In this document: piece by piece, positions 8,937 to 32,774 of the stretch
Numbering within the stretch: the first letter of the stretch is position 1
Layout: each line of letters begins with the position of its first letter
Assembly (NCBI RefSeq): GCF_040802235.1
Contig: NC_133163.1
Location: 66,196,001-66,260,000 of the forward strand
Reading direction: 5' to 3'
From: Manis javanica
Lineage: Eukaryota; Chordata; Mammalia; Pholidota; Manidae
Length of the DNA stretch: 64,000 nt
Translations under genes and position numbers: made by a program
Notes under the pieces: generated by a model
Seen by the model: only the letters and a program-made list of their open reading frames with translations
What the model was told of the DNA's origin: nothing
Database searches by the model: none

Positions 8937-9505
8937 CCCCCTGTTTTGAGAGAACTGTGGATGTTTTATTGCCCTTGTCTAGTTTGGATTAACACTTAGT
9001 CTACAGGCACACACCTGATCATCTACATTTGCTCTCTTACAACACTAAACTATGTTTTCTACCTTTATCTTGCATCTACCCACCACTTCAGCATTTTATT
9101 AAAAATAATAATAATAATAATAATAAAGGGAGAAATGTGGGATTCACATATAAATCAAGTATAAAAATCAAACGAATATTCATATTTGACCTGATTGTTT
9201 ATAGTTCATAATGAGTGATCAAAACCGAAAGTTTTTGTGATGACTGCCCTTGTACTGCTCAACATGTAAGAACTTATTCACTATGTAAGAATTTGTTCAC
9301 CATGTAAGAACTTGGTCGTTATGCTTCAGAAGATTGGAGACTGACGAGAATTAGGCTGGGGGTGGATTAATGACTGTGCATTGAGCATTGACTCCCCTAT
9401 ACAGAATTTTATTGTTGTTAACAACCATTTGATCAATAAATATGAGATGCCCTCTCAAAAAAAAAAACAACATTATTAATGTGTCACTCTTAAGACATTG
9501 AAAAA
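8937..9505 (+). mobile_element. retroviral 3'-end retrocopy with 3' extension
   Basis: This is a 5'-truncated copy of the tail found at 23736-25375, in plus orientation. It starts in the env-LTR spacer, runs through an LTR starting near 9136 ('tgtgggattcac'), and has AATAAA at 9435-9440 and an A-run at 9457-9467. After that run come 33 bp of unrelated DNA (9468-9500) and a second A-run. The whole unit is flanked by the 15-bp duplication 'aaaactgtcactatt' at 8922-8936 and 9506-9520. Those are the marks of L1-driven retroposition, not retroviral integration. Confidence 0.88.
9259..9318 (+). repeat. three ~20-bp direct repeats in LTR U3
   Basis: The motif 'catgtaagaac' and close variants recurs three times at about 20-bp spacing. 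The same array is seen in the two other tail copies (about 10725-10785 and 23880-23940, opposite strand). Position upstream of the polyadenylation signal suggests a U3 enhancer-like repeat; that function is inferred. Confidence 0.6.
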
Positions 9506-10345
9506 AAAACTGTCACTATTTGCAGGTGACATGATACTAAATATATAGAAAACCCTAAAGACTCCATGAAAAAACTACTAGAACTAAAAATTTGATTCAG
9601 CAACATTGCAGGATACAAAATTAATGAAAAAGAAATCTGTTGTGCTCCTATATACTAACAACAAGCTAGCAGAAAGAGAAATCAGGATAACAATTCTATT
9701 TATAATTGCATTAAAAATAATAAAACACCTAGGAATAAACCTAACCAAGGAGGGGAAAGAACTTTACTATGAAAATTATAAGACACTCATGAGAGAAATT
9801 AAAGAAGACACCAATAAATGGAAATCTATCCCATGCCCATGGATAGGAAGAATTAATACTGTCAAAATGGCCATCTTGTCCAAACAACTTACAGATTCAA
9901 GGCAATCCCAATTAAAATACCAATGGTATTTTTCAATGAACTAGAGCAAATAATTCTAAAATTCATATGGAACCACAAAAGACCCCCAATAGCCAAAGCA
10001 ATCCTGTGAAATAACAAAGCTGGTGGGATTACATGACTTCAGGTTCTACTACAAAGCTACAGTATCAAAACAGTACGGTACTGGCACAAGAACACACTCA
10101 TAGATCAATGGAACAGACTATAGAGAGCTCAGATACAAACCCAAGCATATATGATCAATTAATATATGATAAGGAGCCATGGATATACTATGGGGAAATG
10201 ACAGCCTCTTCAAAAACTGAGGTTGGGAAGACAGCTACATACAAGAGAATGAAACTGGATTACTGTCTAACTCCATACACAAAAGTAAACTTGAAATAGA
10301 TTAAAGACCTGAGTGTATACATAAAACCATAAAAGTCTTAGAAGA

Positions 10346-13300
10346 AAAACTATATGCTAACAAACTGGATAATCTAGAAGAAATGAACAACTTGCTAGAA
10401 AAATACAACTTTCTAAGACTGACCCAGGAAGAAACAGAAAATCTGAACAGACTAATTACCAGCAATGAAATTGAATCGGTAATCAAAAAACTGCCCAAGA
10501 ACAAAATCCCTGTGCCAGATGGACTCACCACTGAATTTTTTTTTTTTTTTACAATTTACCATCTTTATTTCTCAACCATTTTTTTTTTGAGAGGGCATCT
10601 CTATATTTATTGATCATATGGTTGTTACCAACAATAAAATTCTGTATAGGGGACTCAATGCACAATCATTAATCAACCCCAAGCCTAATTCTCAACAGTC
10701 TCTAATCTTCTGAAGCATAATGAACAAATTTTTACATGGTGAACAAGTTCTTACATAGTGAGTAAGTTCTTACATGGTGAACAGCGCAAGGGCAGTCATC
10801 ACAGAAACTTTCGGTTTTGATCATGCATCATGAACTATAAACAATCAGGTCAATTATGATTATTCATTTGATTTTTATACTTGATTTATATGTGAATCCC
10901 ACATTTCTCCCTTATTATTATTATTATTTTTTAATGAAATGCTGAAGACTCACCACTGAATTTTATCAGACCTTTAAAGAAGACATAATACCCATTCTCA
11001 TTAAAGTTTTCCAAAAAATAGAAGATGAGGGAACACTTCCAAACTCTTTCTATGAAGCCAGCATTACTCTAATACCAAAACCAGGCAAAGACACCACAAA
11101 AAAAGGAAACTACAGACCAATATCCCTGATGAGTAGAGATGCAAAAATACTCAACAAAATATTAGCAGCCAAATTCAAAAATACATCAAGAGGATCATAC
11201 ACCATGATCAAGTGGGATTCATCCCAGGTGCACAAGGATGGTTTATTTGAAAATCCACCAATATTCTCCACCGACAAAAAAGGACAAAAACCACATGATC
11301 ATCTCCATAGATGCTGAAAAACCATTCGAAAAAATTCAACATCCATTCATGATAGAAACTCAACAAAATGGGTATAGAGGGTAAGTACCTCAACATAATA
11401 AAGGCCATATATGACAAACCCACACCCAACATCATACCTAACAGCGAGAAGCTGAAAGCTTTTCCTCTAAGATCAGGAACAAGACAAGGATGCCCACTCT
11501 CCCTGCTTTTATTCAACATAGTATTGGAGGCCACGGCAATTCGACAACACAAAGAAATAAAAGGCATCCAGATTTGTAAGGAAGAAGTCAAACTGTCACT
11601 ATTTGCAGATGACATGATATTGTACATAAAAAAAACCCTAAAGAATCTGCTCCAAAACTACAAGAACTAATCAGCAAAGTTGCAGGAAACAAAAATTAAT
11701 ACACAGAAATCTGTTGCATGCCCCGTATACTAACAATGAACTAGCAGAAAGAGAAATCAGGAAAACAATTACATTCACAATTGCATCAAAAAAAGAATAA
11801 AATGCCTACGAATAAACCTAGCCAAGGAAGTGAAAGACCTATACCCTGAAAACTACAAGATACTCTTAAGAGAAATTGAAGAGGACACTAATAAATGGAA
11901 ATTCATCCCATGCTATTGCGTAGAAAGATCTAATATTGTCAAAAGGACCATCCTACCTAAAGCAATCTACAGATTCAATGCAATCCCTATCAAAATACCA
12001 ACAGCATTCTTCAGTGAACTGGAACAAATAGTTCTACAATTCATATGGAACCACAAAAGACCCCAAATAGTCAAAGCAATCCTGAGAAGGAAGAATAAAG
12101 CAGGGGGGATCTTGCTTCCCAACTTCAAGCTCTATTACAAAGCCACAGTAATCAAGACAATTTGGTACTTGCACATGAACAGACCCATAGACCAGTGGAA
12201 CAGAACAGAGACCAGATATAAGCCCAAGCATATATGGTCAATTAATATATGATACAGGAGCCATGGATACAATGGGGAAATGACAGACTCTTCAACAGCT
12301 GGTGTTGGCAAAACTGGACAGCTACATGCAAGAGAATGAAACTGGATTATTGTTTAACTCCATACACAAAAGTAAACTCGAAATGGATCAAAGACCTGAA
12401 TGTAAGTTATGAAACCATAAAACTCTTGGAAGAAAATATAGGCAAAATTCTCTTGAACATAAACATGAACTTCTTCATGAACATATCTCCAAGGGCAAAG
12501 GAAACAAAATGAAAAATGAACAAGTGGGACCATCTCAAACTAAAAAGCTTCTGTACAGCAAAGGACACTATCAGTAGAACAAAAAGCATTCTACAGTATG
12601 GGGGAATATATTCATAAATGATATATCTGATAAGGGGTTGACATCTAAAATATACAAAGAGTTCACATACCTCAACAAACAAAAAGCAAATAATCCAATT
12701 AAAAAATAGGCACAGGAGCTGAACAGACACTTCTTCAAAGAAATTCAGATGGCCAACAGGCACATGAAAAGATGCTCCATATCGCTAATCATCAGAGAAA
12801 TGCAAATTAAAACCACAATGAGATATCATGTCACACCAATTAGGATGGACAACATCCAAAAGACAAACAACAACAAATGTTGGCAAGAATGTGTAGAAAG
12901 GGGAACCCTCCTACACTGTTAGTGGGAATGTAAATTAGTTCAACCATTGTGGAAAGCAATATGGAGGTTCCTCAAAAAATTCAAAATAGAATTACCATTT
13001 GACCCAGGAATTCCACTCCTAGGAATTTACCCTAAGAATGCAGGAGCCCAGTTCAAAAAAGATATATGCACCCCTGTGTTTATCACACCACTATTTACAA
13101 TAGCCAAGAAATGGAAGCAACCTAAGTGTCCATCAGTAGATGAATGGATAAAGAAGATGTGGTACATATACACAATGAAATATTATTCAGCCATAAGAAG
13201 AAAACAAATCCTACCATTTGGAGCTAGAGGGTATTGTGCTCAGTGAAATAAGTCAGGTGGAGAATGACAAGTATCAAATTATTTCACTCATCTGTGGAGT

Positions 13301-23625: not shown

Positions 23626-23735
23626 TGTGGTTAACTCTGTAAGGAAAAGCAGTGGGTAGTGATTGTGAAGGAAAATACTGGGGCTTCTGGGATGCTGGCA
23701 TTGTTCCACTTTTTTTTTTTTTTTTTTTTTTTTTT

Positions 23736-24058
23736 GAGAGGGCATCTCTCATATTTATTGATCAAATGGTTGTTAACAACAATAAAATTCAGTATAGGGG
23801 GGTCAATGCTCAATGTACAATCATTAATCCATCTCAAGCCTAATTCTCGTCAGTCTCCAATCTTCTGAAGCATAACGAACAAGTTCTTACATGGTGAACG
23901 AATTCTTACAGAGTGAATAAATTCTTACATGGTGAACAGTACAAGGGCATTCATCACAGAAACTTTCGGTTTTGATCATGCAATATGACCTATAAACCAT
24001 CAGGTCAAATATGAATATTCATTTGATTTTTGTACTTGATTTATATGTTGATCCCACA
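23736..24058 (-). repeat. LTR U3-R part of retroviral tail
   Basis: About 323 bp, matching 9136-9456 and 10589-10900. All three copies end at the same base, just after the short palindrome-like 'gagatgccctctc', which fits cleavage and polyadenylation at the R/U5 border. The AATAAA lies about 20 bases upstream. Confidence 0.7.
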
Positions 24059-24695
24059 TTTCTCCTATTATTATTATTATTTTTATTTTTAATAAAATGC
24101 TGAAGTGGTAGGTAGATGCAAGATAAAGGTAGAAAACATAGTTTAGTGCTGTAAGAAGGCAAATGTAGATGATCAGATGATCAGGTGTGTGCCTATGGAC
24201 TAAGTATTAATCCAGGCTAGACAAGGGCAGCAAGACATCCACGGATGCAGAAGATTTCTCTCAAAGCAGGGGGGGTGAGGTTCTGAGCCTCACCTCTGTT
24301 GATCCCCAAATTCTCACCTGATGGCCCCCCTGCGACTGTGCCTGTCTTAGGTTGTTCCTCCCTTGAGGAATCTTACCCGTCTCTGGCTAACCAGTCATCT
24401 TCCGGGGCCATACAGGGAAATGTAAAGTTGGTAAGTGAGAGAGAAGTCATATTGTTTGCAAAGGTTAGCTTTTTACTTCTTTGCAGATTTATGCCCTGTG
24501 GCTTCTATGCCCAGCATTTGTCTCGAGGTATCTTTACCACCTGGAGGAATTATGATACTCGGTAAATTCGATATGAGGCACGAATTCTATTTAAGGTTTG
24601 TAATTAGGAAGGAAGAAGAAAAGCTATAGATGTAGCATATGAAGGAAACTTGGGAGGATTGATTATTTCTTTGACATATCTTCTTGTATAGTACC

Positions 24696-25137
24696 TTAAG
24701 TATGTATAGGTTTTAAACTACTAACTAATTTGCACACACATATTAACATAATAGGAATACGGTAACATAAACAAAGCAAATCTATAATTACCAGCCATCT
24801 CCAGTGAAGCCAAGAAAACCATTTAGGCACCCTAGGCATTTGTGAAAATTTATCTATAATATGATGGATATTTTCCAACTGTACTTGAACCATCAGACAA
24901 ATTAAAGCAGCCCATTTCTGGGATCTGTTCACATCCCATATGTTCTTTTAACCATAGATAGTCTATAGTCATGAGATTTTGGGGTGCTACAACTTGCACC
25001 CCTCCCAACTCCTGGTTGAGTTCCAACAGTACAGATCCAGTCAAATTCGTTGTCTCACTGTATGCACATGCCAGCCTAGACATCTCCCTCCTCCTTCTTA
25101 TGGCAAGTCCAGGAGACGGTGGGCTGGATGCAGCCAC
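24696..25137 (-). pseudogene. retroviral env transmembrane-subunit remnant
   Basis: Two overlapping minus-strand frames, 25137-24850 (95 codons) and 24932-24696 (78 codons), are in different phases. Together they resemble the end of a retroviral transmembrane envelope subunit. The first contains a cysteine, six residues, then glycine-cysteine, where the family norm is a cysteine pair. The second contains a tryptophan-rich stretch and a hydrophobic span of about 20 residues followed by a short tail. The frame break, the missing upstream env and the altered cysteine mean no functional protein. Assignment rests on motif order. Confidence 0.6.
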
Positions 25138-25393
25138 AACCGCAGCATCGTCCGGATCCCTGGGGAGGCTTTTTGATGATCATCCCCCGGCACGAGTCCT
25201 CCAGAGAGTGCTGATGCCGGAAGCTCCTCCTCATATCGTATCTTATTTCATTTTCTGGGTATCCAAGCTAGGCCTTGATCTTCTGCGTAGAAACAAACAG
25301 ACCCTTTGCCCACACTTTGACATGCCCTCTATACCACTGTGCAGAACTCATTGGAGGTCAGCACACAGTAACTGCTTTTTTTTTTTTTTTTTT

Positions 25394-25918
25394 AATTAAG
25401 AGAAAGGAATATTATCAGAAAAGAGTACCTCCATAGCTGATCATCTGACACCCTTTAAGTGATCAACATTAAGGATATTTAAAGCATGCGTTGATCTTTG
25501 ATTTACCAATAGTTTTATCCTGTTAACGAGTAATCCCCTTTTCTTTCTTTCTTTCGTACTTTTTTTTTTTTTTTTTAAATTTTTTATCTACCCTTACATG
25601 AAGAATACTATGTTTACTATGCTCTCCCCTATATCAGGTCCCCCCTAACAACCACATTACGGTTACTGTCCATCAGCTTAGCAAAATGTGGTAGAGTCAC
25701 TACTTGTCCTCTCTGTGTTCTGCAGCCCACCCTACCCTTTCTCCCTGCCCCCCATGCATGCTAATCTTAATACCCCCCTTCTTCTTCCCCCCCATTATCC
25801 CTCCCTGCCCACCCATCCTCCCCAGTTCCTTTCCCTTTGGTACCTGTTAGTCCATTTTTGGGTTCTGTAATTCTGCTGCTGTTTTGTTCCTTCAGTTTTT
25901 CCTTTGTTCCTATACTCC
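25394..25918 (-). other. young L1 3' UTR
   Basis: About 525 bp between the ORF2 stop and the internal A-run. It contains an A-rich/polypurine tract (25540-25577 as T/C on the plus strand). It then has a 170-bp terminal block, 'gcatgctttaaatatcctta' and so on, that is also found at the 3' end of the L1 at 56006-62339 (62110-62265). The shared end shows that the family 3' UTR stops at 'ctcttaat' and that the retroviral tail is extra. Confidence 0.85.
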
Positions 25919-28900
25919 TCAGATGAGTGAAATCATTTGGTATTTCTCTTTCTCCGCTTGGCTTATTTCACTGAGCATAATACTCTCCAGCTCCATCCAT
26001 GTTGCTGCAAATGGTTGGATTTTTCCACTTCTTATGGCTGAGTAGTATTCCATTGTGTATATGTACCACATCTTCTTTATCCATTCATCTACAGATGGAC
26101 ATTTAGGTTGCTTCCAATTCTTGGCTATTGTAAATAGTGCTGCGATAAACATAGGAGTGCATCTGTCTTTCTCAAACTTGATTGCTGTGTTCTTAGGGTA
26201 AATTCCTAGGAGTGGAATTCCTGGGTCAAATGGTAGGTCTGTTTTGAGCATTTTGATGCACCTCCATACTGCTTTCCACAATGGTTGAACTAATTTACAT
26301 TCCCACCAGCAGTGTAGGAGGGTTCCCCTTTCTCCACAGCCTCGCCAACATTTGTTGTTGTTTGTCTTTTGGATGGCAGCTATCCTTACTGGTGTGAGGT
26401 GATACCTCATTGTAGTTTTAATTTGCATTTCTCTGATAATTAGCGATGTGGAGCATCTTTTCATGTGTCTCTTGGCCATCTGTATTTCTTTTTTGGAGAA
26501 CTGTCTGTTCAGTTCCTCTGCCCATTTTTTAATTGGGTTATTTGTTTTTTGTTTGTTGAGGCGTGTGAGCTCTTTATATATTCTGGACGTCAAGCCTTTA
26601 TCAGATCTGTCATTTTCAAATATATTCTCCCATACTGTAGGGTTCCTTTTTGTTCTATTGATGGTTTCTTTCGCTGTACAGAAGCTTTTCAGCTTAATGT
26701 AGTCCCACTTGCTCATTTTTGCTGTTGTTTTCCTTGCCCGGGGAGATATGTTCAAGAAGAGATCACTCATGTTTATGTCTAAGAGGTTTTTGCCTATGTT
26801 TTTTTCCAAGAGTTTAATGGTTTCGTGACTTACATTCAGGTCTTTGATCCATTTTGAGTTTACCTTTGTATATGGGGTTAGAATATGGTCCAGTTTCATT
26901 CTCCTACATGTAGCTGTCCAGTTTTGCCAGCACCATCTGTTGAAGAGACTGTCATTTTGCCATTGTATGTCCATGGCTCCTTTATCAAATATTAATTGAA
27001 CATATATGTTTGGGTTAATTTCTGGGGTCTCTAATCTGTTCCACTGGTCTGTGGCTCTGTTCTTGTGCCAGTACCAAATTGTCTTGATTACTATGGCTTT
27101 GTAGTAGAGCTTGAAGTTGGGGAGTGAGATCCCCCCTACTTTATTCTTCTTTTTCAGGATTGCTTTGGCTATTCGGGGTCTTTGGTGTTTCCATATGAAT
27201 TTTTGAATTATTTGTTCCAATTCATTGAAGAATGTTGCTGGTAATTTGAGAGGGATTGCATCAAATTTGTATATTGCTTTCGGCAGGATGGCCATTTTGA
27301 CGATATTAATTCTTCCTAGCCATGAGCATGGGATGAGTTTCCATTTATTAGTGTCCCCTTTAATTTCTCTTAAGAGTGACTTGTAGTTTTCAGAGTATAA
27401 GTCTTTCACTTCCTTGGTTAGGTTTATTCCTAGGTATTTTATTCTTTTTGATGCAATGGTGAATGGAATTGTTTTCCTGATTTCTCTTTCTATTGATTCG
27501 TTGTTAGTGTATAGGAAAGCTACAGATTTCTGTGTGTTGATTTTGTATCCTGCAACTTTGCTGTATTCCGATATCAGTTCTAGTAGTTTTGGAGTGGAGT
27601 CTTTAGGGTTTTTTATGTACAGTATCATATCATCTGCAAATAGTGACAGTTTAACTTCTTCTTTACCAATCTGGATTCCTTGTATTTCTTTGTTTTGTCT
27701 GATTGCCGTGGCTAGGACCTCCAGTACTATGTTGAATAACAGTGGGGAGAGTGGGCATCCCTGTCTGGTTCCCGATCTCAGTGGAAATGCTTTCAGCTTC
27801 TCGCTGTTCAGTATAATGCTGGCTGTGGGTTTATCATATATGGCCTTTATTATGTTGAGGTACTTGCCCTCTATTCCCATTTTGCTGAGAGTTTTTATCA
27901 TGAATGGATGTTGAATTTTGTCAAATGCTTTTTCAGCATCTATGGCGATGATCATGTGGTTTTTGTCTTTCTTTTTGTTGATGTGGTGGATGATGTTGAT
28001 GGATTTTCGAATGTTGTACCATCCTTGCATCCCTGGGATGAACCCCACTTGGTCATGGTGTATGATCCTTTTGATATACTGTTGAATTCTGTTTGCTAAT
28101 ATTTTATTGAGTATTTTTGCATCTACATTCATCAGGGATATTGGTCTGTAATTTTCTTTTTTGGTGGGGTCTTTTCCTGGTTTTGGTATTAGGGTGATGT
28201 TGGCTTCATAGAATGAGTTTGGGAGTATTCCCTCTTCTTCTATTTTGTGGAACACTTTAAGGAGAATGGGTATTATGTCTTCTCTGTGTGTCTGATAAAA
28301 TTCCGAGGTAAATCCGTCCGGCCCCGGGGTTTTGTTCTTGGGTAGTTTTTTGATTACTGTTTCAATTTCTTTGCTTGTAATTGGTTTGTTTAACTTTTGT
28401 GTTTCTTCCTTGGTCAGTCTTGGGAGGTTGTATTTTTCTAGGAAGTTGTCCATTTCTTCTAGGTTTTCCAGCTTGTTGGCATATAGGTTTTCATAGTAGT
28501 CTTTAATAATTCTTTGTATTTCTGTGGAGTCTGTCGTGATTTTTCCATTCTCATTTCTGATTATGTTGATTTGTGTTGACTCTCTTTTTCTCTTAATAAG
28601 TTGGGCTAGAGGCTTATCTATTTTGTTTATTTTCTCAAAGAACCAGCTCTTGGTTTCGTTGATTTTTGCTATTGTTTTATTCTTCTCAATTTTGTTTATT
28701 TCTTCTCTGATCTTTATTATGTCCCTCCTTCTGCTGACTTTAGGCCTCATTTGTTCTTCTTTTTCCAGTTTTAATAATTGTGATGTTAGACTATTCATTT
28801 GGGATTGTTCTTCCTTCTTCAAGTGTGCCTGGATTGCTATATACTTTCCTCTTAAGACTGCTTTCGCTGCATCCCACAGAAGTTGGGGCTTAGTGTTGTT

Positions 28901-29761
28901 GTTGTCATTTGTTTCTATATATTCCTTGATCTCTATTTTGATTTGTTCATTGATCCATTGACTATTTAGAAGCATGTTGTTAAGCCTCCATGTGTTTGTG
29001 AGCCTTTTTGTTTTCTTTGTAGAATTTATTTCTACTTTCATACCTTTGTGGTCTGAAAAATTGGTTGGTAGAATTTCAATATTGTGGAATTTACTGAGGC
29101 TCTTTTTGTGAGCTAGTATGTGGTCTATTCTGGAGAATGTTCCATGTGCACTTGAGAAGAATGTATATCCTGTTGCTTTTGGATGTAAAGTTCTATAGAT
29201 GTCTATTAGGTCCATCTGTTCTAGTGTGTTGTTCAGTGCCTGTGTGTCTTTACTTATTTTCTGCCCGGTGGATCTATCCTTTGGGGTGAGTGGTGTGTTG
29301 AAGTCTCCTACAATGAATGCATTGCAGTCTATTTCCCTCTTTAGTTCTGTTAGTATTTGCTTCACATATGCTGGTGCTCCTGTATTGGGTGCATATATAT
29401 TTAGAATGGTTATATCCTCTTGTTGGACTAAGCCCTTTATCATTATGTAGTGGCCTTCTTTATCTCTTGTTACTTTCTTTGTTTTGAAGTCTATTTTGTC
29501 TGATATTAGTACTGCAACCCCTGCTTTCTTCTCACTGTTGTTTGCCTGAAATATGTTTTTCCATCCCTTGACTTTTAGTCTATGCTTATCTTTGGGTTTA
29601 AGGTGAGTTTCTTGTAAGCAGCATATAGATGGGTCTTGCTTTTTTATCCATTCTATTACTCTATGTCTTTTGATTGGTGCATTAAGTCCATTTACATTTA
29701 GGGTGACTATTGAAAGATATGTACTTATTGCCATTGCAGGCTTTAGATTCGTGGTTACCAA
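25919..29761 (-). CDS. L1 ORF2 protein: endonuclease and reverse transcriptase
   Basis: An uninterrupted frame of 1280 codons, the usual size for mammalian L1 ORF2. The N-terminal 240 residues form an APE-type endonuclease: '[15 protein letters not shown]', 'QETHL', 'GDFNTPL', 'SRIDHIL' and 'SDHKG' carry the expected catalytic Asn, Glu, Asp and His positions. The reverse transcriptase has '[11 protein letters not shown]' near residue 700. Near the C-terminus '[18 protein letters not shown]' supplies the conserved Cys/His motif. The protein nicks the target DNA and primes reverse transcription on it. The start may be the first ATG (29761) or the MAIS ATG 9 codons later. The ORF1-ORF2 gap is about 170 bp. 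Since all key motifs are present the protein could be active; activity is not shown. Confidence 0.95.
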
Positions 29762-29929
29762 AGGTTCAAGGTTAGCTTCTTTAGTATCTTACTGCCTAAC
29801 TTAGCTCGCTTATTGAGCTGTTATATACACTGTCTGGAGAGTCTTTTCTTCTCTCCCTTCTTATTCCTCCTCCTCCATTCTTCATATGTTGTGTGTTTTG
29901 TTCTGTGCTCTTTTTAGGGGTGCTCCCAT

Positions 29930-30886
29930 CTAGAGCAGTCCCTGTAGGATGCCCTGTAGAGGTGGTTTGTGGGAAGCAAATTCCCTCAGCTTTTGCTTGT
30001 CTGGGAATTGTTTGATCCCACCATCATATTTAAATGATAGTCGTGCTGGATACAGTATCCTTGGTTCAAGGCCCTTCTGTTTCATTGCATTAAGTATATC
30101 ATGCCATTCTCTTCTGGCCTGTAGGGTTTCTGTTGAGAAGTCTGATGTTAGCCTGATTGGTTTTCCTTTATAGGTGACCTTTTTCTCTCTAGCTGCCTTT
30201 AAAACTCTTTCCTTGTCCTTGATCCTTGCCATTTTAATTATTATGTGTCTTGGTGTTGTCCTCCTTGGATCCTTTCTGTTGGGGGTTCTGTATAATTCCA
30301 TGGTCTGTTCGATTATTTCCTCCCCCAGTTTGGGGAAGTTTTCAGCAATTATTTCTTCAAGGACACTTTCTATCCCTTTTCCTCTTTCTTCCTCTTCTGG
30401 TATCCCTATAATACGAATGTTTTTCCTTTTGTATTGGTCACATATTTCTCTTAGTGTTGTTTCATTCCTGGAGATCCTTTTATCTCTCTCTCTGTCAGCT
30501 TCTATACGTTCCTGTTCTCTGGCTTCTATTCCTTCAATGGCCTCTTGCATCTTATCCATTCTGCTTATAAATCCTTCCAGGGATTGTTTCACTTCTGTGA
30601 TCTCTTTCCTGACATCTGTGATCTCCTTCCGGACTTCATCCCACTGCTCTTGCATTTTTCTCTGCATCTCATCCCACTGCTCTTGCAGTTTTCTCTGCAT
30701 CTCATCCCACTGCTCTTGCATTTTTCTCTGCATCTCATCCCATTGCTCTTGCATTTTTTTCTGCATCTCTGTCAGCATGTTCATGATTTTTATTTTGAAT
30801 TCTTTTTCAGGAGGACTAGTTAGGTCTGTCTCCTTCTCAGGTGTTGTCTCTGTGATCTTTGTCTGCCTGTAGTTTTGCCTTTTCAT
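29930..30886 (-). CDS. L1 ORF1 RNA-binding chaperone
   Basis: An uninterrupted 318-codon frame in L1 order upstream of ORF2. ORF1 protein trimerises through a coiled coil, binds L1 RNA and forms the cytoplasmic particle with ORF2. Residues 1-40 are a basic N-terminal part. Residues 41-84 are four 11-residue repeats of the type 'MQRKMQEQWDE', and the coiled coil continues to about 140. An RRM-like domain follows from about 156 ('NIRIIGIPEEEE', 'RHIIIKMARIKDKERVLKAA'), and the C-terminal domain covers about 250-318 ('LQARREWHDI', 'ILYPARLSFKYDG'). The length is close to other mammalian ORF1 proteins. The other copy in this window has only two of the 11-residue repeats. Confidence 0.93.
   Translation of the reverse strand: MKRQNYRQTKITETTPEKETDLTSPPEKEFKIKIMNMLTEMQKKMQEQWDEMQRKMQEQWDEMQRKLQEQWDEMQRKMQEQWDEVRKEITDVRKEITEVKQSLEGFISRMDKMQEAIEGIEAREQERIEADRERDKRISRNETTLREICDQYKRKNIRIIGIPEEEERGKGIESVLEEIIAENFPKLGEEIIEQTMELYRTPNRKDPRRTTPRHIIIKMARIKDKERVLKAAREKKVTYKGKPIRLTSDFSTETLQARREWHDILNAMKQKGLEPRILYPARLSFKYDGGIKQFPDKQKLREFASHKPPLQGILQGLL
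30635..30766 (-). repeat. 33-bp tandem repeats within L1 ORF1
   Basis: Four in-frame 33-bp units encode the 11-residue coiled-coil repeats (residues 41-84). The units are nearly identical in DNA. The equivalent block in the other L1 (56971-57036) has two. Confidence 0.9.
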
Positions 30887-31378
30887 GGTGATAGAGATAG
30901 TTTGCAGAGCTGGTACAAGTGACCGCTGGAAGAGCTTCCCTTCTTGTTGGTTTGTAGCCTTTTCCTGGGAGAATAGTGACCTCTAGTGGCTTGTGCTGGG
31001 CAGCTGTGCGCAGACAGGGCTTCTGCTTCCTGCCCAGTTGCTTTGGGGTTTATCTCCGCTGTTGCTGTGGGCTTGGCCTGGCTGGGGCTCTTCCTCCAAA
31101 ATGGTGGAGCCCCGTTGGAGGGGGAGCAGCCAGGGGACTATTTATCTCCGTAAGGGGCCTCTGTGCTCCCTGCTGCCCAGGGGGTTAGAGTGCCCAGAGA
31201 TCCCCAGATTCCCTGCTTCTCGTCTAAGTGACCTGTCCTGCCCCTTTAAGATTTCCAAAAAGCACTCTCCAAACCAAAACAACAACAGCAACAATGAGAG
31301 AGGGAACAGAAAGAAAGAGAAAAAAAAAAAAGGAAAAAAAAAGGAAAAAACAAGCGATTTTTTTTTTTTTTTTTTTTT

Positions 31379-32260
31379 TGTCCTCAGGTGCCGGTCCCAG
31401 GCACCCGCTCACTGGTCCTGCTGCCCTGTCTCCCTAGCACCAGGGTCCCTGTCCTTTCAAGGCTTCCAAAAAGCACCCACCCACCGGTCCCGCAGGGAAG
31501 GAACACTCAATATTCTTTGTCCTCTGGCACTGGTCCCACGCACCCGCTCACCAGTCCCGCCGCCCTGCCTCCCTAGCACCGGGGTCCCTGTCCCTTCAAG
31601 GCTTCCAAAAAGCACTCGGCAAAAAGAGAAAAAAAAAGGGGAAAAACGCGCGATTTCTTCCGTCCTCAGGTGCTGGTCTCAGGCACCCACCCACCGGTCC
31701 CACAGGGAAAAATGCGGGATATTCTTTGTCCTCAGGTGCCGGTCCCAGGCACCCGCTCACCAGTCCCGCCGCCCTGCCTCCCTAGCACCGGGGTCCCTGT
31801 CCCTTTTAGGCTTCCAAAAAGCGCTCGCCCAAAAGAGAAAAAAAAAAGGGGAAAAACGCGCGATTTCCTCTGTCCTCAAGTGCCGGTCTCAGGCACCCGC
31901 CCACCGGTCCCGCAGGGAAAAACGGGGGATATTCTTTGTCCTCAGGCGCCGGTCCCAGCCACCCGCTCACCAGTCCCGCCACCGTGCCTCCCTAGCACTG
32001 GGGTCCCCGTCCCTTCAAGGCTTCCAAAAAGCGCTCGCCCAAAAGAGAAAAAAAAAAGGGGGAAAAACGCGCGACCTCCTCCGTCCTCAGGCACCGGTCT
32101 CAGGCACCCGCCCCCAGGTCTCGCAGGGAGAAACGCGGGATATTCTTTGTCCTCCGGCGCCGTTCCCAGGCACCTCCTCACCGGTCCCGCCACCCTGCCT
32201 CCCCAGCAACGGGGGCCCGTCCCTCTAAGGCTTCCAAAAAGGGCTCGCCAAAAAAAAAAC
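31379..32260 (-). repeat. ~210-bp tandem monomers in L1 5' UTR
   Basis: The landmark 'attctttgtcct' recurs at 31512, 31721, 31931 and 32142, giving intervals of 209, 210 and 211 bp. Between the landmarks the same text repeats: 'cccgctcaccagtcccgcc', 'gcttccaaaaagcgctcgcc', an A-run, then 'aaaaacgcgcgat'. A shorter, partly diverged unit lies at 31379-31511. The L1 at 56006-62339 has only about one unit (56250-56400). Confidence 0.9.
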
Positions 32261-32485
32261 CGCTCCGGTTTCTCTCCACCCGCCGGGAGCCGGGGGGAGG
32301 GGCGCTTGGGTCCCGCCGGGCTGGGGCTTGTATCTTACCCCCTTCACAAGGCGCTGGGTTCTTGCAGGTGTGGATGTGGTCTGGATGTTGTCCTGTGTCC
32401 TGTGGTCTCTATTTTAGGAAGATTTTTCTTTATTATATTTTCATAGCTCTATGTGTTTTTGGGAGGAGATTTCCACTGCTCTACT

Positions 32486-32502
32486 CACGCCGCCATCTTG
32501 GC
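32486..32502 (-). promoter_or_regulatory. YY1-type site at L1 5' end
   Basis: On the minus strand the element begins 'ggggagccaagatggcggcg'. 'CAAGATGGC' matches the YY1 motif that sets the transcription start in human L1. At the same place the second L1 (56013-56030) reads 'gccagaatggtgg', a decayed version. Confidence 0.7.
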
Positions 32503-32774
32503 TCCCCTGGCATTGTTCCACTTTTTAGCCTGATTAAAACTGGTTGATGGTTCCACGGATGTTCACTTTGTAGATAATTAATTCATCTTGTATTTATGTC
32601 TTCTGTGCTTTACTGTATATGTAGTATGCTTCACAATAACCTCTCCCCATATACCCCCCTAAAAGCTTCTGGCCATTGGTGCTTCAAAAGGAGCTGTGAA
32701 ACTATTTGAACTCTAATATACTCCTCAGTTCTAAATTTCTAGGATTTTAGAAAGGTATTTTATTTTTCTTAGCA

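Follow-up and report, generated by a model that had tools for sequence, protein, structure and literature searches.

How did an apparently intact LINE-1 (L1) retrotransposon come to end in a piece of a retrovirus? The question is raised by an element on the minus strand of a 64,000-nt stretch of the Manis javanica genome (contig NC_133163.1, positions 66,196,001 to 66,260,000; hereafter the window), for which a preliminary description had reported an intact L1 and a retroviral env-long terminal repeat (LTR) tail within a single 20-bp duplication, had taken the two to have moved as one RNA and had proposed 3' transduction from an L1 seated in a provirus. Our analysis recovered the same boundaries: the whole unit, consisting of L1, inner poly(A), retroviral tail and outer poly(A), is enclosed by one 20-bp target-site duplication, CTGGCATTGTTCCACTTTTT, of which 15 bp are unambiguous because the last five T of CTGGCATTGTTCCACTTTTT merge with the poly(A), and the 5' start of the L1 at position 32506 reads GGGAGCCAAGATGGCGGCG. 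Intactness of the L1 was likewise borne out, as both open reading frames (ORFs) are open and carry the domains of their kind: ORF1 matches the Pfam families PF02994 (E 1.1e-25) and PF17490 (E 4.5e-20), the L1 RBD-like and dsRBD-like domains, and ORF2 matches PF03372 (endonuclease, E 7.1e-25) and PF00078 (reverse transcriptase, E 1.2e-46). The best named relatives of ORF1 are proteins of Manis javanica and M. pentadactyla, the top one with 89% identity over 91% of the query. Judged by these domains, the target-site duplication, the poly(A) and the 5' truncation of some copies, the element is a predicted autonomous LINE-1. With its inner poly(A), non-L1 sequence, second poly(A) and single outer duplication it has the structure of an L1 3' transduction. 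At the inner junction between L1 and tail no duplication can be seen, as had been noted before, but this absence is uninformative because an all-T duplication would hide in the A-tract.

To learn whether the junction is private to this site, as the preliminary description had asked, we searched the host genome for it. A pattern of tail positions 37-67 yielded 5870 + 6072 = 11,942 matches with up to three mismatches, and a reversed-pattern control yielded none. In all 30 copies fetched, namely the first 30 perfect matches listed for contig C1 and not a random sample, some being segmental duplicates, the L1 3' end is followed by an A-tract and then directly by the tail start; a 166-nt L1 extension precedes the A-tract in 27 of them, and a shorter L1 end is joined to the tail in the other three. 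Stretches of 10 kb were taken for 20 of the 30 loci (that of L043 also contains L021), and all 20 long copies terminate at the same site with AATAAA; according to the alignments, 14 are full-length and six are 5'-truncated. A duplication surrounds the whole unit in 14 of the 20 (13 exact, one with one mismatch after a further transduction), and none was found within 160 nt in the remaining six. Since L032/L036 and L033/L039 have common flanks on contig C1 and are probable segmental duplications, each pair was counted once, leaving 12 independent duplications. L1, inner poly(A) and tail were thus copied together, as one RNA, by target-primed reverse transcription ending at the LTR poly(A) site. 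Both ORFs are open in six of the 20 long copies (ORF1 326-339 aa, ORF2 1289 aa) as well as in the window copy, and some copies of the lineage look intact still. The same junction within different flanks marks an expanding chimeric lineage, a large L1 lineage of many thousands of copies, with several subfamilies and with recent members having open ORFs.

The L1 and the tail have a common history. The distance matrices of the two parts, computed for 25 copies (the window copy and 24 of the 30 loci; six loci with a short or broken L1 or tail were left out), are correlated with a Mantel r of 0.919, a value reached by none of 2000 permutations. The main clades of the maximum-likelihood trees agree: L026 with L008/L015/L022, L003/L010/L011, L021 with L004/L023, the window copy with L025, and L002 with L006 are found in both. 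Some small forks disagree and many are unsettled, and bootstrapping for the tail tree did not reach convergence. Because of the common main clades and the correlated distances, the tail is regarded as an inherited 3' end of the lineage: L1 and tail were joined in an ancestor, and the window copy inherited the fusion. A one-off chimera at this site, to which we give practically no credence, is refuted by the common junction genome-wide, the duplications and the concordant trees. A virus retrocopy nested in the window copy's own poly(A), first suggested by tail-only pieces with duplications of their own, is excluded by the genome-wide junction.

The retroviral character of the tail, and its end at an LTR polyadenylation site, are supported by several lines of comparison. 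An open piece of the tail is similar to the env transmembrane protein (TM) of avian sarcoma/leukosis virus (ASLV), four tail pieces compared with Pfam gave no match, and the tail ends 18 nt past the AATAAA. A search with the LTR start (excluding the A- and G-rich tract) found 11 places, of which seven continue past the tail end into a common U5 and four are not LTRs; at one of the seven U5-bearing loci the LTR is followed by a primer site, TGGCACCCGAACAGTGACC, which we take to be of Lys type. An LTR R-U5 pattern had 325 genome matches with at most one mismatch, and among the matches listed there are pairs 5.4-5.9 and 7.7 kb apart. The U5 continuation and the LTR pairs indicate that proviruses of a related virus are present in the same genome and that their poly(A) site is where the tail stops, so that a putative class II endogenous retrovirus (ERV) is its predicted origin, consistent with the env TM, the LTRs, the primer site and the LTR pairing. 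When true LTRs were sought by a non-A base after the poly(A) site (147 matches), U5 was present in none of the 20 regions read, most of which lead, at once or within a few bases, into A-rich sequence (L054 is an exception). Scans of viral contigs with two patterns gave no matches with either. The start of the tail has its counterpart in the C5 provirus, as ..TTCTAAGACAACA followed by GCAGTTCC, just after integrase-like sequence; over the first 45 nt of the tail the best offset is the expected one, and none of 5000 shuffles equalled the match. A 54-aa piece of a provirus had no match in Pfam, and all eight of its matches among solved structures are integrases or Pol polyproteins, the best with an E of only 0.037, which weakly suggests that the tail start apparently lies in late integrase. 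As a separate observation, matches to the related-virus LTR recur about every 44-49 kb, nine in a row, at G000:C10:1478764-1842123, suggesting a tandem segmental array.

As to the founding event, we consider it rather probable that the lineage arose by 3' transduction from a provirus. An ancestral L1 would have entered the provirus in sense direction at CT/AAAACAACAG, within late integrase; transcription of this L1 would have continued through its own poly(A) site, with cleavage of the transcript at the LTR signal; the composite RNA would then have been retroposed, and the tail would have been retained as the new 3' end since every copy brings the LTR signal with it. The bases CAACA, expected between A-tract and tail, would have been lost or changed to A early. 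Genome matches to the joint in its virus form number 102 (up to three mismatches), and of the ten virus copies whose letters were displayed, eight have CTAAAACAACAG above the tail start and five have one of the listed LTR matches no more than 5 kb away on the same strand. The strand opposite the virus site reads TGTTGTTTT/AG, which is close to TTTT/AA, the nick consensus of the L1 endonuclease, and the window element itself used TTTTT/AG. By chance, [CT]TAAAA would start within 10 nt upstream of 2.0% (tail) to 5.5% (virus pieces) of positions, or of 2-8% of positions over four forms of the motif. It is because such an endonuclease-like site lies just above the tail start in eight of ten virus copies that we favour insertion of an L1 into a provirus as the origin. 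A source provirus carrying the L1 was not found.

Several observations weigh against this origin. The tail follows the poly(A) without the expected CAACA, and sequence that still has these bases, an A-tract with CAACAGCAG, occurs at a single place genome-wide, its context unread. The C5 provirus matches the tail start at only 71% (32 of 45 letters), so that it is a relative and not the source. In three virus copies the interval between the joint and the LTR poly(A) site spans 2253, 2334 and 2598 nt against 1640 nt in the tail, and three proviruses read at the tail-start offset had no tail match; since the tail is 0.6-1.0 kb shorter and those three lack a match, the source would be a deleted copy or a spliced RNA, the missing stretch being, by position only, probably env surface sequence. 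To these come the non-random make-up of the 30-copy sample and the three shorter L1 ends, here taken as putative deletions between A-tracts. The proposal of the preliminary description is therefore retained in modified form: the nick-like site speaks for transduction from an L1 in a provirus, but the CAACA is missing and the joining was ancestral and did not take place at the window copy.

The absence of CAACA would suit a different course, in which the L1 machinery inserted a 5'-truncated, polyadenylated virus retrocopy, in the same orientation, within the poly(A) of a single active L1, as 5' truncation may fall anywhere; its duplication would be all A and hence invisible, and read-through of that locus would have founded the lineage. 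The A-tracts flanking the tail on both sides agree with such an event, and TTTT/AATT at the L1 end would make a good nick site by the consensus. We nevertheless hold it to be unlikely, since the tail starts 9 nt below the endonuclease-like virus site, which this course leaves to chance, and since no stand-alone virus retrocopy was seen, an L1 lying upstream in 30 of 30 sampled copies that cover the tail start; the tail-only pieces of the window are uninformative on stand-alone retrocopies because they are 5'-truncated. The same coincidence with the endonuclease-like site is unexplained if, in the course of a single insertion, the reverse transcriptase began on virus RNA and continued from there onto the poly(A) of an L1 transcript. 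Such a template switch would yield the order L1, poly(A), truncated virus, poly(A) in one step and would make a source locus unnecessary, yet we regard it as improbable.

Splicing could account for the length of the tail, which falls short of related virus copies, if an L1 read-through transcript was spliced to the env acceptor of the virus and another splicing event took out some of env. Acceptors for env usually lie in late integrase, where the tail apparently starts, and there is a pyrimidine tract in the sequence above the tail start. By approximate weights, however, the AG at the tail start ranks only at the 67th percentile of window AGs, while an AG 7 nt upstream reaches the 97th, and we judge this route very improbable. 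Transduction from an L1 in a provirus thus remains our preferred reading.

The features of the window element and of related pieces in the window are given in the table below.

Features of the L1-retrovirus element and of related tail copies (positions within the window)
Feature	Position	Strand	Remark
Target-site duplication, left copy	23695..23714	.	last 5 T common with outer poly(A)
Outer poly(A), 26 nt	23710..23735	-	
Retroviral tail, 1640 nt	23736..25375	-	late integrase (apparent), short leader-like stretch, env TM, LTR U3-R to poly(A) site
LTR U3-R part, 323 nt	23736..24058	-	A- and G-rich tract just before
AATAAA poly(A) signal of LTR	23754..23759	-	at most 30 nt from end in 20/20 long copies
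Open piece similar to env TM (ASLV fusion TM)	24850..25179	-	4jpr E 1.3e-6, 5h9c E 1.5e-6
Probable integrase C-terminal remnant	25243..25375	-	first 45 nt match provirus after integrase-like sequence, 32/45 letters
Inner poly(A), 18 nt, fossil L1 end	25376..25393	-	
Earlier 3' extension of L1 family, 166 nt	25394..25559	-	in window only here and in tail-less young L1 (62.1 kb)
A17 run	25560..25576	-	position of earlier L1 3' end, by comparison with older window L1s
L1 ORF2 (endonuclease and reverse transcriptase)	25919..29788	-	1289-aa open frame
L1 ORF1	29930..30982	-	350-aa open frame
210-bp tandem units, L1 5' untranslated region (5'UTR)	31473..32254	-	3.7 copies
Target-site duplication, right copy	32507..32526	.	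nick site TTTTT/AG on + strand
5'-truncated tail copy inside older L1	8937..9458	+	own duplication AAACTGTCACTATT; second poly(A) after 33 nt extra
5'-truncated tail copy	10589..10947	-	own duplication AAAATTCAGTGGTGAGTC; second poly(A) after 28 nt extra with AATAAA

The other L1s of the window point to an earlier change of the same end. A second L1 of the same family (about 56.0-62.3 kb, plus strand), which the preliminary description had rightly given as tail-less, terminates in A-rich sequence, beyond which lies a 14-nt duplication of its own, AATAATAG[C/G]GAGA, read by eye and with one mismatch. Older window L1s stop where the young L1 carries the A17 run, and because of this the 3' end of the family seems to have grown stepwise, apparently first by the 166 nt and then by the 1640 nt of virus sequence. 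A further short transduction has been added to the tail in three copies, namely the two tail-only pieces of the window and L048, the latter with a further 52-nt transduction and a third A-tract beyond position 9493, before its duplication. A tandem repeat of the LTR end segment, connected via A-rich stretches, follows the first end in both L037 and L042 (about 9491-9870 in locus coordinates), and in L037 a third copy of the LTR end begins. Within the L1 body, the 210-bp 5'UTR units are apparently fewer in the tail-less L1 at 56 kb, and ORF1 contains 33-bp tandem units (4.1 copies, window positions 30636-30769) that may alter the length of the coiled coil; the ORF1 frame has 350 aa in the window copy versus 326-339 aa in the six other copies with an open ORF2.

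With an env-LTR 3' end spread in many thousands of copies, 3' transduction appears able to build a lasting new L1 architecture. The fragment has seemingly been copied far more often by L1 than by the virus itself (11,942 tail-start matches against 325 LTR and 102 virus-joint matches, a rough ratio as the mismatch limits differ). Tentatively, and with more doubt than confidence, we suggest that the retroviral end is a functional L1 module, in which the LTR signal or an RNA feature of env-LTR strengthens the transcript end and drove the success of the lineage; it would then be a second, independent recruitment of an env-3'LTR piece, parallel to the SINE-R of SVA. The capture resembles the way in which SVA gained its SINE-R, and it opens to testing the question of whether L1 benefits from poly(A) signals or RNA elements of retroviruses. 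For annotation it matters that 5'-truncated copies of the lineage resemble stray LTR fragments, two of which lie in the window.

Among known systems, the element is closest in structure to L1 3' transductions, including those of human families, which likewise combine an inner poly(A) with downstream sequence that brings a poly(A) signal of its own, all within one outer duplication; unlike in those, the transduced piece here is a retroviral 3' end that has become the 3' end of a lineage (about twelve thousand matches). Copies of HERV-W mobilised by L1 are alike in that retroviral RNA was copied by L1 enzymes (PMC5537654). HERV-W retrocopies are not known to contain an L1 or to form a self-copying lineage. 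In the Chinese pangolin, ERV lineages with LTRs include beta-class ERVs with a Lys primer site, and one L1 inserted in a gamma ERV has been described (PMC12584738). The virus related to the tail resembles these ERVs in its LTRs and, at one locus, in a Lys-type primer site, and the parts of that study consulted here (PMC12584738) do not mention an L1 lineage with a retroviral end. Titles and abstract openings of the open-access literature yielded no L1 lineage with a retroviral 3' end either. L1 3' transduction as such is already known. Mammalian L1 families often recruit new 5'UTRs (PMC5872511), a comparable modular change by capture, although here it concerns the 3' end and apparently happened twice in succession. 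The nearest parallel in composition is SVA, whose SINE-R corresponds to the 3' end of env and the 3' LTR of HERV-K10 followed by an A-tail (PMC12593883) and which is mobilised by L1 proteins (PMC7353768). The window element differs from SVA in the presence of L1 ORFs (no search was aimed at the hexamer and Alu modules themselves). In both cases an env 3' end with its 3' LTR is moved by the L1 machinery, but SVA is non-autonomous and without L1 ORFs, whereas here, in a different host and from a different virus, the module is fused to an autonomous L1.

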